39,984 bases of DNA from Hydrogenophaga sp. (lineage in GTDB: Bacteria > Pseudomonadota > Gammaproteobacteria > Burkholderiales > Burkholderiaceae_C). Location of the stretch: the NCBI GenBank assembly GCA_025458915.1, contig JALORL010000020.1, positions 1 through 39,984 on the forward strand, in the 5' to 3' direction. Of the stretch, positions 10,581 through 19,992 are shown in pieces (positions within the stretch are counted from its first letter, which is position 1; every line of letters begins with the position of its first letter). Both the position numbers and the translations under genes were made by a program. The notes under the pieces were generated by a model that did no database searches, was not told the origin of the DNA, and saw nothing but the letters and a program-made list of their open reading frames with translations.

Positions 10581-11266
10581 AGCAAACTGGAATTCACTTG
10601 AATAATCTGAAATACAGTGTTGTTTTTGTATTGGTTTTTTGCTTCCTGGGTGTGGCCCACGCCAACTCGTACGAGCGCTTCTTCGAGGCTGTGAAGCGCG
10701 ATGACGAATCGACCATGATCGCCCTGGCGCTGCGTGAATTCGACCTGAACACGCTCGGCCCCGACGGGGAACCTGCGCTGGTGACGGCGGTACAACTCGG
10801 CTCCCTGAAGGTGGCCAATTTCCTTCTGGACCAGCGCAAGGTGAAGGTGGAGGTGCGCAACCGCCGCGACGAAAGCGCGCTCATGATGGCCGCGCTCAAG
10901 GGGCATCTGGCCATCGCCAAGCGCTTGATCGCCCGCGGGGCCGAGGTGAACAAGCCGGGCTGGACCCCGTTGCACTACGCGGCCTCCCACCCGGAGCCCG
11001 CTGGTGTCGACATGACCCGGCTTCTTCTGGAGCACCATGCCTACATCGATGCGGAGTCCCCAAACCGCACCACGCCCCTGATGATGGCCGCACGGTATGG
11101 GCATCCCGATGTCGTCGCCTTGCTGCTGGAAGAGGGCGCCGATGCCTCCTTGAAGAACGAAAAAGGGCTTACCGCCATTGACTTTGCCCGCGAGGCCAAC
11201 CGCCCTTCGGTCGCAGAAGCCATTGCAGCCCAGTTGCGCAAGACACGCCCCCGCGGTACCTGGTAA
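10577..11266 (+). CDS. Secreted ankyrin-repeat protein
   Basis: Signal-like N-terminus; several ankyrin repeats (DESALMMAALKGHLAIAKRLIARGAEVNKPGWTPLHYAA..., TTPLMMAARYGHPDVVALLLEEGADAS). ATGA overlap with tatD. Confidence 0.92.
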   Translation: MKQTGIHLNNLKYSVVFVLVFCFLGVAHANSYERFFEAVKRDDESTMIALALREFDLNTLGPDGEPALVTAVQLGSLKVANFLLDQRKVKVEVRNRRDESALMMAALKGHLAIAKRLIARGAEVNKPGWTPLHYAASHPEPAGVDMTRLLLEHHAYIDAESPNRTTPLMMAARYGHPDVVALLLEEGADASLKNEKGLTAIDFAREANRPSVAEAIAAQLRKTRPRGTW

Positions 11267-14814: not shown

Positions 14815-15024
14815 GGGATCTGGCCTATGGTTATCACCGGTGCAATGCGGTCGTGCAATATGCCACGTGTGGGGTCGCACCGCAGGCCGATACCCGTCAG
14901 GAGGCGGCCGGCAACGGGCGCTGGAGCTGCAGCTGGCATTCAATCAGAAATCTGATCAGACATTCTACGATGTATATTATGTTAAGTTAAAGATGGGCGC
15001 AGATCGTGTTGCTTGCGCCTGCCG

Positions 15025-15069
15025 TTGCTTTTCTAAATTTTGTTCCTACTTTTTTCTAAAAGTTGATCC
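15025..15069 (-). repeat. Left-end repeat cluster of the insertion unit
   Basis: CTAAATTTTGTTCC at 15033-15046 and degenerate CTAAAAGTTGATCC (11/14) at 15056-15069. Confidence 0.65.
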
Positions 15070-15140
15070 AGTCAGCAGTCACCCGAAGTCAGCCCGACGT
15101 CCCCCCATTTTCAGTAGCACTGGGCTTTGGAGTCCGGGAT

Positions 15141-15974
15141 TTAATTTAGCGGGTTTTTCATCAGCTTCTGGGCATGGGCCGCCGGGGTCAATCCGCCGAG
15201 GGACTTCTTCGGACGTTCCTCGTTGTATTCCCGGCGCCAAGCCTCGACGATCACACGGGCATGAGCCAAGCTGGTCAACCAGTGCTCGTTTAGGCATTCC
15301 TCCCGGAATCGACCATTGAACGATTCGATGTAGGCGTTCTGGTTGGGCTTTCCGGGCTCGATAAGGAACAACTGAACACCCCTGGCGTGAGCCCAGTTCA
15401 GCATGGCTCGCCCGCAGAACTCCTTGCCGTTGTCGGTACGAATCGCCTTGGGCAGACCCCTTGTCTTGGCGAGTTGATCCAGAATCCGCGTCAACTGGGT
15501 GCCGCCCATTGCCCGCTCGGCCACGATGGCCACCGCCTCATGGGTTGCATCATCGACCACAGTCAGATTCTTGAGGGTGCGACCTTCAGCGGTTCGGTCA
15601 AACACAAAGTCCATGGACCACACCTGGTTGGCAGCCATCGGACGTTGCAGGGGGTGACGCTCAGACAGCGGGATCTTCTTGCGTTTTCGTTTCCTGAGCT
15701 GCAGACCCGCCTCGGCGTACAGGCGCTCGATGCGCTTGTGGTTGACGATCTCACCGGCCTGGCGCAGCTTCAGGTAAATCATGCCCGCACCATAACGGCG
15801 ATGGCGTTGTGCCAGGGCGATGATCTTGTCCTTCAGGACGCTGTTTCGGTCTGCAGCGGGCTCATAACGATAGGCGCTGGCGCTCATGCCGATGACGCTC
15901 AGTGAACGGCGTTCGCTCAGCCCGCAGTCGACCATGTGGCGCACCAGCTCGCGCCGTGCGGGTGCGCTCACCAC
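15141..15974 (-). CDS. IS3-family transposase OrfB (DDE integrase core)
   Basis: rve domain with D, D and E motifs; in the -1 frame relative to OrfA. Confidence 0.93.
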   Translation of the reverse strand: MVSAPARRELVRHMVDCGLSERRSLSVIGMSASAYRYEPAADRNSVLKDKIIALAQRHRRYGAGMIYLKLRQAGEIVNHKRIERLYAEAGLQLRKRKRKKIPLSERHPLQRPMAANQVWSMDFVFDRTAEGRTLKNLTVVDDATHEAVAIVAERAMGGTQLTRILDQLAKTRGLPKAIRTDNGKEFCGRAMLNWAHARGVQLFLIEPGKPNQNAYIESFNGRFREECLNEHWLTSLAHARVIVEAWRREYNEERPKKSLGGLTPAAHAQKLMKNPLN

Positions 15975-16234
15975 TTTTTTCTCAAGGCTTCTTTCGTCAC
16001 CTCGTTCTCAAGCATCGACTCGGCCAGCAACCGTTTGAGGCGAGTGTTTTCAAGCTCGAGTTCCTTCAGGCGCTTGGCATCCGAGACGCTCATGCCACCG
16101 AACTTGTTGCGCCAGAGGTAGTAGCTGGCTTCCGAGAAACCGTGCCGACGGCACAACTCGGTCACCGGCAGGCCTGTCTCGGCTTCGCGCAGGAAGCCAA
16201 TGATCTGCTCTTCCGTAAATCTCCATTTTTTCAT
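15968..16234 (-). CDS. IS3-family transposase OrfA
   Basis: MKKWRFTEEQ... ends ...ALRKKW* over an A AAA AAG slippery heptamer (15980-15974). Confidence 0.9.
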   Translation of the reverse strand: MKKWRFTEEQIIGFLREAETGLPVTELCRRHGFSEASYYLWRNKFGGMSVSDAKRLKELELENTRLKRLLAESMLENEVTKEALRKKW

Positions 16235-16444
16235 CAGTGCGACCCAAAGGACTGTTTCCCTTCGAGTGTGGCGAGCGTGCGGTCCGGGGCTAGCGCGGCT
16301 CTTGGTGGGCGGTGGGATGAGGCCGAACTGAGCTTTCGGATCCGGTGGCCAGTTACCTTGCAGTAACCCGGCTGGACGAAGAATGGCAGCGCGAGAGGCG
16401 GAATGCCCCGATCGCAACCCCTCCAACCTCATCAGGACTTCATC

Positions 16445-17104
16445 ATGTCAGCTTCCATCAAATCGCTCATTTCTGTCTCCGTGGCGGGTGTTTCGCTGTT
16501 GGTTTGCCTGCCCGTCGCTCCCCAAGACAAGGCAGGCTGGTATGCCAACGTTTACGGAGGCAGCAGCTCACTGGCCTCAACCAACCTGTCAGATACCAGA
16601 TCCTCTGTACCGACCCTGGCCGGCAAGGCTGCTTTTGGCAGCGGAATGGGCTTGGGCGGAGGCGTCGGTTATCGCTATGGCAATGGCTGGGCAGCCGAAC
16701 TGGCCTGGGACTACCGGAGTCATGACCTCAAGCGCATCGATGGCGTGACCGTGTCGGGCGAGTTCGCCTCCACGACGGCCTTCCTCAATGGCAACTACCG
16801 CTTCCAAAAGGTGGGCGTGGTGCGCCCCTTTGTGGGCGCTGGTGTGGGATATGTCACCGAGATCGACATGGACCTCAGCCGTGGTGGCTCCGCACGAGAG
16901 TATTCGCGCCGCGGCGGTCTGGCCACCCAAGCCATCGTGGGTGGCGAAGTGGACTTGTCCGACCGCTGGAGCGTGAGCGCCGACCTGCGCTGGACCCAGA
17001 TGGGCAGCGGGACTTTCAAGTCAACCAACCCCGACGCTTCGCTGGGGGGCAAGCCCAAGTACCAGCCCACATCGCTGAACGTGGGTGTGACGTACCGCTT
17101 CTGA
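16445..17104 (+). CDS. Outer membrane beta-barrel protein
   Basis: N-terminal signal-like segment; alternating aromatic/hydrophobic strands (GWYANVYGGSSSL, GLGGGVGYRYGNGWAAELAWDYRSHDL) and C-terminal ...LNVGVTYRF ending in F. Confidence 0.85.
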   Translation: MSASIKSLISVSVAGVSLLVCLPVAPQDKAGWYANVYGGSSSLASTNLSDTRSSVPTLAGKAAFGSGMGLGGGVGYRYGNGWAAELAWDYRSHDLKRIDGVTVSGEFASTTAFLNGNYRFQKVGVVRPFVGAGVGYVTEIDMDLSRGGSAREYSRRGGLATQAIVGGEVDLSDRWSVSADLRWTQMGSGTFKSTNPDASLGGKPKYQPTSLNVGVTYRF

Positions 17105-17122
17105 ATGGCACACTTTGCGTGT

Positions 17123-17693
17123 ATGTCCCGAGTCCTGATCGTCGAAGACCATCCGCGCATGGCCCAAACGGTGGCCGCAGCCTTGCGGGCGCAAGGGATT
17201 GCCTGTGACACCGTGGCCACGCTGGGGCATGCCGCCGCTGATCTTGACGGCGCGGGACGCACTGGACGACCGCGTGAACGGACTCGAAACCGGCGCCGAC
17301 GATTACCTGACCAAGCCTTTTGAAATGGCCGAGCTGGTGGCACGGATCAAAGCCTTGATGCGACGCAACCAGCCTTGGGCGCCCGACGAAACCTGTTTCG
17401 CAGACCTCAAGATCTCGCCCCACGCCAGCACGCTTTTTGTGGGGCCGTCGTCCATCACCTTGTCCCCCAGCGAATTGCAGGTGCTGTTGGCTCTGATTCG
17501 GCACCAAGGCGAGGTCGTGCGGCGTGGCGCGCTGGAGTCGGCCGCCTGGGGAGCGTTCTCCGACATCACGCCCAAGGCCCTGGACGTTGCCATTCATCGG
17601 CTGCGCGGCAAGCTGGTGGCCCTGCAATCGAAGGTATCGATCACCAACACGAAAGGCGTGGGCTATGCGCTGGCAGTTTCTCAAGACGCCTAG
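17123..17693 (+). pseudogene. OmpR-family response regulator disrupted by an internal frameshifting deletion in the receiver domain
   Basis: Frame 1: MSRVLIVEDHPRMAQTVAAALRAQGIACDTVATLGHAA; then a different frame: MPPLILTARDALDDRVNGLETGADDYLTKPFEMAELVARIKALMRR + winged-helix C-domain. The beta3 phospho-acceptor segment is absent. Confidence 0.88.
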
Positions 17694-19017
17694 CCTTGCG
17701 CTTCGCCTGACCGTCGTGTTCTCGCTGGCGATTGCCATCGTGGCGGGCCTGTACATGGCGGTGCAGGCTGTGGTCGCGCACCGCTTTGGCGATTTCATCA
17801 CGCAGCAAAGCCTCATGGGCCAGAGCCACGACATCGCAGACGCCATGGCCATCGATGGCAAGGGGCAACTCACTGTGAAGCTGCAAGGGCCCGACGCCGA
17901 GAGTTTCGATGCGTTTTTTGCGAATCTCAAGTACCGCGTTCTGGCAAGCGATGGCCGGGTGCTGGCTTCTTCAGACGGCGATTTCAACAGTCTGCTGCCC
18001 GGCGTACCCCCGAGCGAGCAGGACGCTCACTACCTGCGCACGGAAGTCAACCGAACGCTGTTTCATGTCGCCACCGTGCGCCACCGCATTCAGGGGCAGG
18101 ACTACTGGGTGCAGGTCGGTCGCAGCGATCGCTTTGCCCAACTGACGCAAGAAGCGATCTTGCCGGCCATGACCGAAGCCGTGGGCATCATGGCGGCCTT
18201 GGCGATTGTGGTGCTGGCTGTCCTGAGCTACTGGGGGGTGCGCAGTGTTTTGCGGCCGATCCGACTGGCCAGTGAAGCAGCACACACCGTCGCCCAAAAC
18301 AACTTGTCCGCCCGCATACCGGTGGAACCCTTGCCAGCCGAAATCCGGCCCTTGGTGATCGCTTTCAACGAGGTGTTGGCTCGACTTGAGCTGGCCTTCC
18401 ATGCGCAGCAGCGATTTTTTGCCAACGCCGCCCATGAGCTCAAGACGCCGATTGCTTTGCTGCGCGGGCAGTTGGAGGCGCAGGGCGCGCGCGTGCCTCC
18501 CGAAACACTCGGCGACGTTGACGCCCTTGGGCGCACGGTAAACCAGTTGTTGCACGTGGCAGAAGTCGCGGGTGGACGTGTTCTGCGAAAGCAGCCCGTG
18601 GCTTTGGCAGAGATCACCCAACAAGTGAGCGGATTTCTGTCATGGCGCGCCCAAAAGGCCGAGGTCAGCCTGCAGATCGTTCTTGAACCGCCTGACGTTC
18701 GGGTCGAGGCAGACGCCGGTGAACTGTTCGTGTTGATCAAAAACCTGGTCGAAAACGCCATCGATCATTCACCGAGCGGCGGCATCGTTCGAATCAGCGT
18801 GACCCCGGGGGGGCTGTGCGTTGAAGACCAAGGGAAAGGCGTCGCAGAGCATCATCGAGCGCACGTATTCGAACGTTTTTGGCGCGCTTCGGACAACACG
18901 AAACCAGGCTCGGGTCTGGGCTTGGCCATTTGTATGGAAGTGTCGCGTGCGCACGGCTGGCGGTTGGAGTGCAAGCAATCGATTCTCGGTGGCGCTCTTT
19001 TTCAACTGGACTTTTGA
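17665..19017 (+). CDS. Sensor histidine kinase
   Basis: Two TM segments, HAMP-like region, H-box FFANAAHELKTPIALLRGQ, N-box LIKNLVENAIDHSP, G-box GSGLGLAIC. Confidence 0.94.
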   Translation: MRWQFLKTPSLALRLTVVFSLAIAIVAGLYMAVQAVVAHRFGDFITQQSLMGQSHDIADAMAIDGKGQLTVKLQGPDAESFDAFFANLKYRVLASDGRVLASSDGDFNSLLPGVPPSEQDAHYLRTEVNRTLFHVATVRHRIQGQDYWVQVGRSDRFAQLTQEAILPAMTEAVGIMAALAIVVLAVLSYWGVRSVLRPIRLASEAAHTVAQNNLSARIPVEPLPAEIRPLVIAFNEVLARLELAFHAQQRFFANAAHELKTPIALLRGQLEAQGARVPPETLGDVDALGRTVNQLLHVAEVAGGRVLRKQPVALAEITQQVSGFLSWRAQKAEVSLQIVLEPPDVRVEADAGELFVLIKNLVENAIDHSPSGGIVRISVTPGGLCVEDQGKGVAEHHRAHVFERFWRASDNTKPGSGLGLAICMEVSRAHGWRLECKQSILGGALFQLDF

Positions 19018-19649
19018 AGCAGCCGCTTTGGGGTGCCGCCTGCTCGGCCAGAACAACCTGCTCATACTTCAACCGCGTTAGTTTCCAATCTGCAGTTGCG
19101 CCAGCTTGAATGGCGGGTTCGGAGGCCTAGCCCCGATGTCCGCTTCGGGTCGAGAGCGTGAGTTGAGCGCTTCGAGCAGCTGACATTCGGTCGCGAGTTG
19201 GCGGAGCCATCGGCGGCCGGCTACGCTGGATGACTGCAGCCCCTTCGATACCTGTCATTGATGCCGCCTTGCTGCCGGGTGAGCCGATGACGGCTTCGTG
19301 CTAGGCACCGTGAACCCAGCTCACGGGCGCGACCGGCTCCAAACGCTGCACAAGCGCCCCTGACCCGTGATGGTGCAGTCCTGTTGCTGGAGCAAGTCTT
19401 GTCTGACTCCCTCCCCTCCAGCCGAACCATCAACATCACAGGTTGCTTCTCAGTGGCACGAAAATCGCTGCAGTCAAGATTCCGGCGGCATTCTGCAGGC
19501 ACTCGACCCTCCAGGAACGAGGTTCAGCAATGGCATAAATGAGGTGACCACAACGGCGCCAGACACCTGAGCAAGTTCGGCCGTAAGAGTGCCGTGGTCG
19601 ATCCAGGAGTCAAATAGTGGCCAAACCGAGAACGCGGAGCGTCAGGTGG

Positions 19650-19771
19650 GGAACAATTTCTAGACGCAGTCTATTTTTGGAACAAAATCTAGCAGAAAGC
19701 TGTTCTAGATCAAGGGACCATACACCGCACCACCGTGGAGGAAGTGGGGATTGCTTTGGAACAAAATTTAG
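19650..19771 (+). repeat. Right-end repeat cluster of the insertion unit
   Basis: GGAACAATTTCTAG (19650-19663), GGAACAAAATCTAG (19679-19692), GGAACAAAATTTAG (19758-19771), all in the same orientation. Confidence 0.7.
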
Positions 19772-19992
19772 AAAATGAACGCCTGCCGACCTCCCGGACC
19801 CCGACCGGTCCGGAAAGGCACGGACCTTGCTCACTCCAAAACATGCCGCACCCTGGTGCCAATCGCTTTCGAACATCGGGGGAAACAGCAGAGCCAGTTG
19901 CCCGGGCACGGAACACCCCACACCTACAATCCGTTACCTTTCGAGGGCGCCAATTCCGGCCATCCCGATTCACCTGTTTATCTAGGAATTCC

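Follow-up and report, generated by a model that had tools for sequence, protein, structure and literature searches.

The window analysed here, that is, the whole stretch of 39,984 nucleotides of Hydrogenophaga DNA, contains a 4.76-kb unit integrated in a Burkholderiaceae genome, whose ends can be read directly from the sequence. The left terminal inverted repeat (TIR), TTGCTTTTCTAAATTTTGTTCC, occupies positions 15025-15046 on the forward strand, and the right TIR occupies positions 19758-19779 on the reverse strand, its reverse complement being TTCATTTTCTAAATTTTGTTCC. The two match at 20 of 22 positions, and their inner 18 bp, TTTTCTAAATTTTGTTCC, are identical. Immediately outside both TIRs lies the nonamer CGCCTGCCG, present as a perfect direct duplication at 15016-15024 on the left and, read directly, at 19780-19788 on the right. 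The original prediction had named these TIRs and this target duplication, and its coordinates and letters were exact when checked against the sequence. A repeat search ranked the TIR pair as the highest inverted pair in the region, and it also recovered the sub-terminal repeats that had been predicted: one at the left end (15052-15069, forward strand, TTTTCTAAAAGTTGATCC), which has the orientation of the TIR, a 23-bp period and a 15/18 match to the end motif, and two at the right end on the reverse strand, namely right sub-terminal repeat 2 (19676-19692, GGAACAAAATCTAG) and right sub-terminal repeat 3 (19647-19663). The 18-bp motif is present in two copies at the left end and three at the right, and its orientation is single at each end, the sub-terminal copies following the TIR of that end.

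These ends and the duplication are far above chance expectation. With up to three mismatches allowed, TTNNTTTTCTAAATTTTGTTCC has two matches in the window and an expectation of zero in 100 shuffles, and inverted 22-mers matching at 20 or more of 22 positions with 9-bp flanks matching at 8 or more of 9 positions occur once in the window and not at all in 30 dinucleotide-shuffled versions of it. The terminal stretches have G+C contents of 38% and 43%, compared with 62-63% in their surroundings.

The unit lies upstream of an amino-acid ABC operon, the substrate-binding gene of which runs from position 19992 on. In same-genus relatives, a 28-bp motif, either TTCTACGATGTATATTATGTTAAGTTAA itself or a sequence closely resembling it, is conserved upstream of this gene, and in the window it is found at 14963-14990, left of the unit. 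We took as the motif-to-ABC distance the number of base pairs between the point equivalent to window position 15000 and the ABC start codon. The motif was matched in 17 of the 29 same-genus ABC loci examined, and the distance was 137-184 bp in 14 of these 17 loci, the exceptions being 44, 283 and 720 bp. The window itself gives 4,992 bp, or 228 bp once the unit is subtracted. Because the motif is about 5 kb away from the ABC gene in the window and mostly 137-184 bp away in the relatives, the 4.76-kb unit is, as judged from this comparison, an insertion between the motif and the ABC operon. The ABC operons of the relatives, which do not contain the insert, thereby bear out the predicted insertion bounded by TIRs and a 9-bp duplication. 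The proposed search for an empty site was answered in part: an insert-free ABC side is present in relatives, but the exact single copy of the 9-mer was not seen, the nearest relatives being only ~80-85% identical in the ABC gene and too distant to display it. The main visible effect of the unit is that the ABC transporter operon has been parted from its conserved upstream motif.

The cargo of the unit comprises three genes on the forward strand. The first (16445-17104) encodes an outer-membrane beta-barrel protein (OMP) of the OMP_b-brl/OmpW-like type (Pfam PF13505, 1.2e-14; PF03922, 5.6e-7). It is followed by a frameshifted pseudogene of an OmpR-type response regulator (17123-17693), which misses 113 bp at about 17238/17239, and by a histidine kinase gene with an open frame (17665-19017) and HAMP, HisKA and HATPase_c domains. 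The upstream region of the OMP gene (16344-16444, forward strand) appears to have been captured as well, as homology to two other loci (L144 and L152) begins at 16344-16352. This region contains the conserved dyad GTTACCTTGCAGTAAC at 16352-16367, of the form GTTAC-N6-GTAAC, which is kept in both of these loci and may be where the linked response regulator binds. The 113 bp missing from the middle of the receiver domain are retained in the genomes of three relatives (G317, G340 and G328), and among them is ILDRGLPDGDGL, the part of the receiver in which the aspartate that becomes phosphorylated would be expected. The regulator had been predicted to be broken, and the cause can now be given as a 113-bp deletion with a frameshift. 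Because of these two lesions in the regulator, the two-component system is broken here, despite the open kinase frame.

Related cargo is present elsewhere in the genus. G317 and G340 contain all three cargo genes plus the upstream region at 75-78% DNA identity, G328 contains the three genes at ~70-76% identity, split across two contigs, and G339 contains a kinase homologue (75%) at a contig edge. For comparison, the identity of the ABC gene to that of the window is 77% in G317, 80% in G340 and 81% in G328. Since the cargo and the ABC gene show identities of the same order in these genome comparisons, the cargo operon looks native to the genus, a view that is based on identity values and not on a tree. 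In the relatives, the cargo operon has other neighbours on its contigs and is without the end motif. The original prediction had counted the occurrence of the same OMP/two-component locus without these boundaries as evidence against itself. Such loci do exist in relatives, but the boundaries stand, and because the ABC side supplies an independent insert-free allele, the operons without ends show capture of the cargo and not false boundaries. Those same operons are what would be expected if there had been no transposition at all, that is, if the operon were ancestral at this site and the inverted repeat and the 9-mer were coincidental. We regard this view as barely credible in light of the shuffled windows, of which 0/30 yield such a pair, the relatives' ABC operon that keeps its upstream motif adjacent, and the different neighbours of the OMP/two-component operon in the relatives. 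Instead, we consider it highly probable that the unit is a non-autonomous transposon bounded by TIRs, which entered the site upstream of the ABC operon in a single integration and then decayed.

An IS3-family element lies near the left end of the unit, on the reverse strand (15094-16233; orfB 15141-15974, orfA 15968-16234). Its orfAB products contain the Pfam domains rve and HTH_Tnp_1, annotation assigned it as ISCte3-like, and over positions 15094-16223 it shares 91% identity with a copy from a different genus of the family (G232). The left end of the element, CGACGTCCCCCC, is preserved at 15094 and lies 69 bp inward of the left terminus of the unit. Homology ends at ~16224-16233, and the copies in relatives run ~80 bp further, to GGGGGGACGTCG; the copy in the unit lacks both the right terminal repeat and the sequence that precedes orfA. 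Thus, by comparison with these relatives, the IS3 copy is seen to be nested in the unit and itself broken at its right end, a pattern that shows a deletion at this side of the IS3 within the unit. Since the right end has been lost, no duplication can be scored for the IS3 copy. Deletions beside the inserted element have been reported for the IS407 group of the IS3 family, and larger adjacent deletions for an IS21 element (PMC3281130). We rejected the IS3 as the mobiliser of the unit, its end CGACGTCCCCCC being located at 15094 and not at 15025, in agreement with the prediction that it is a nested insertion; it does not, however, have the TG...CA-type ends that the prediction described as typical of IS3 elements, the preserved end being CGACGTCCCCCC. 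A composite transposon was also rejected, there being only one IS3 copy and a single orientation of the motifs at each end.

The highly probable reading as a decayed transposon can take two forms: the unit may be a cassette without a transposase from the outset, or it may be an internal-deletion derivative of an autonomous ancestor, which would have had its own transposase genes in the interval from the left end to the OMP gene and lost them in the deletion that removed the right end of the IS3. The latter form would account for the point at which the IS3 homology stops and for the absent ~80 bp and right terminal repeat, and it agrees with the finding that positions 16234-16343 match nothing found. 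It is weakened by the lack of any transposase remnant, as the DNA outside the IS3 and the cargo matched only a dispersed repeat in a DNA-level search, and we give it an even chance.

This dispersed intergenic repeat is located at 19139-19460 and is 72-84% identical to sequences in many genomes of the family, among them a contig of G344 (G344:C18, 82%); a second match is present in the own genome (G000:C224:4904-5107). Such repeats, ~200-320 bp long and 72-84% identical, were observed in many Burkholderiaceae genomes, including two positions of another locus (L257:4381-4700 and 10777-10986). No conserved reading frame was evident in the repeat, and Rfam gave no family match in the window. Besides positions 16234-16343, two further stretches, 19042-19138 and 19461-19640, had no match in these searches.

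An owner of the ends was sought in the unit itself and beyond it. Within the unit, as predicted, open reading frames and Pfam revealed no transposase fitting the ends; only the IS3 orfAB is present, whose own end is internal. The suggested count of TIR copies in the host genome was run with up to three mismatches, and in this 3.19-Mb genome, which is 81% complete, the only end-motif sites were the four inside the unit. When the DNA of the whole unit was compared with 301 genomes of the family, the matches were limited to the IS3, short stretches of the regulator and the dispersed repeat. A search of species genomes (one genome per species, exact 18-mer) gave 61 single matches to TTTTCTARATTTTGTTCC among 84,980 genomes, and 13 more were found in viral contigs (IMG/VR); the matches were mostly in AT-rich genomes, and none of the 18-mer loci examined had an opposed pair at up to two mismatches. 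In 401 family genomes, searched with two mismatches, the matches fell in unrelated genes or intergenic DNA, with no partner site and no transposase evident. The 14-bp core, searched with one mismatch in 66 genus and 401 family genomes, gave no two-ended cluster, and controls were equally high. The two-unit pattern of the left end, searched in 399 genomes of the order and in IMG/VR, was found in the window only, and searches of the ends against plasmids and phages gave nothing meaningful. The longer copies with the same TIRs and a transposase, for which the original prediction had proposed to look, did not appear among the genus, family, order and species genomes, viral contigs, plasmids and phages.

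By its anatomy, we assign the unit to the degraded non-autonomous transposons of the mobile-insertion-cassette kind, the partner of its ends not having been found in the collections searched. Mobile insertion cassettes have been defined by inverted repeats, the lack of a transposase and a target duplication (PMC3913671). The unit has TIRs matching at 20/22 around OMP, response regulator and histidine kinase genes, a 9-bp target site duplication, and no transposase for the ends inside. It resembles MIC231 of Bacillus cereus and mic-qnrD of Proteeae in having passengers between TIRs, no transposase of its own and a target duplication. It differs from MIC231 in that the partner of the latter is known, IS231A, whereas none was found for the ends of the unit, and from both by its sub-terminal repeats, the truncated IS3 nested in it and the decay of its cargo.

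Other known systems share single features with the unit. The ISCte3-like IS3 family matches the nested element (orfA/orfB, rve, 91% to the family copy), but not the ends of the unit. IS903 and IS6 ends start with GG and are not known to have repeated sub-terminal motifs; the ends of the unit differ by beginning with TT and by their repeated sub-terminal motifs. IS21, Tn7, Tn402/Tn5053 and Mu carry a terminal motif repeatedly, always in the same orientation within an end, and generate duplications of 4-8 or 5 bp. The ends of the unit likewise carry a repeated motif, in one orientation each, but its duplication is 9 bp and it has no matching transposase. IS21 elements in particular have multiple terminal repeats and duplications of 4-8 bp, and the multiple terminal repeats raised the suspicion that the ends derive from an IS21-like element. 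Duplications of 7-8 bp have been reported for three Paracoccus IS21 elements, and duplications of 9 bp, the same length as in the unit, for IS903-group (IS5) elements and for ISPmar1 (IS6) (PMC3281130). Nevertheless, an IS21-like origin seems very unlikely to us, given that the motif was found at the ends of 0/30 IS21 loci drawn from 201 genomes of the family, that the duplication is 9 bp long, and that the ends start with TT and not TG. Membership of IS21 was itself rejected, istA and istB being absent among the open reading frames of the unit. It is somewhat less doubtful, albeit still unlikely, that the ends define an undescribed family of transposons that can capture whole host regulatory operons and of which the unit is the sole copy seen; its features would be 22-bp TIRs ending in TT, 18-bp sites repeated for the transposase and a duplication of 9 bp. 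Alternatively, the ends may just be those of an IS that is rare or has escaped sampling.

Returning to the decayed non-autonomous transposon, its history can be proposed as follows. A DDE-type transposase, absent from the unit, would have bound the repeated 18-bp motif at both ends, cut there, and transferred the ends to target strands broken 9 bp apart, from which the duplication of CGCCTGCCG would result. The unit would have brought with it the genus-native OMP/response-regulator/histidine-kinase operon along with the region upstream of it. An IS3 of the ISCte3-like type would then have inserted close to the left end, after which a deletion would have taken the right end of the IS3, and possibly the cognate transposase gene too, and the 113-bp deletion would have broken the regulator. 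We infer the DDE chemistry, transposase binding at the repeats, the order of events and the extent of the deletion. It should be noted that "non-autonomous" refers to the present state of the unit, whose ancestor may or may not have contained a transposase. Neither the unit nor its pair of ends turned up a second time in the own genome, relatives, species genomes, viral contigs, plasmids or phages, a result that gives no sign of repeated mobility and leaves the transposase family unassigned. Of the original view of a non-autonomous transposon moving a sensory/outer-membrane module, the transposon is upheld, but the working module is not, the regulator being 113 bp short and the right end of the IS3 being lost.

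As found, the unit is a decayed, single-copy element of an ordinary mobile-element kind. It nevertheless offers a well-documented pair of transposon ends without a known owner, which has carried a native envelope-sensing operon between genome sites. If transposase-bearing copies appear, the end sequence and the 9-bp duplication would identify the family at once.

The searches also brought up a back-to-back pair of the core motif in another genome (G043), which was rejected as unrelated: it is the edge of a recombinase element that has a 57-bp inverted repeat and sits within an IS21 gene. This integrase-like recombinase element (L247:4163-7657, on contig G043:C10) is bounded by 57-bp perfect inverted repeats, lies inside the IS21 istA gene and has a 16-bp perfect palindrome at one border; we take it to be RIT-like.
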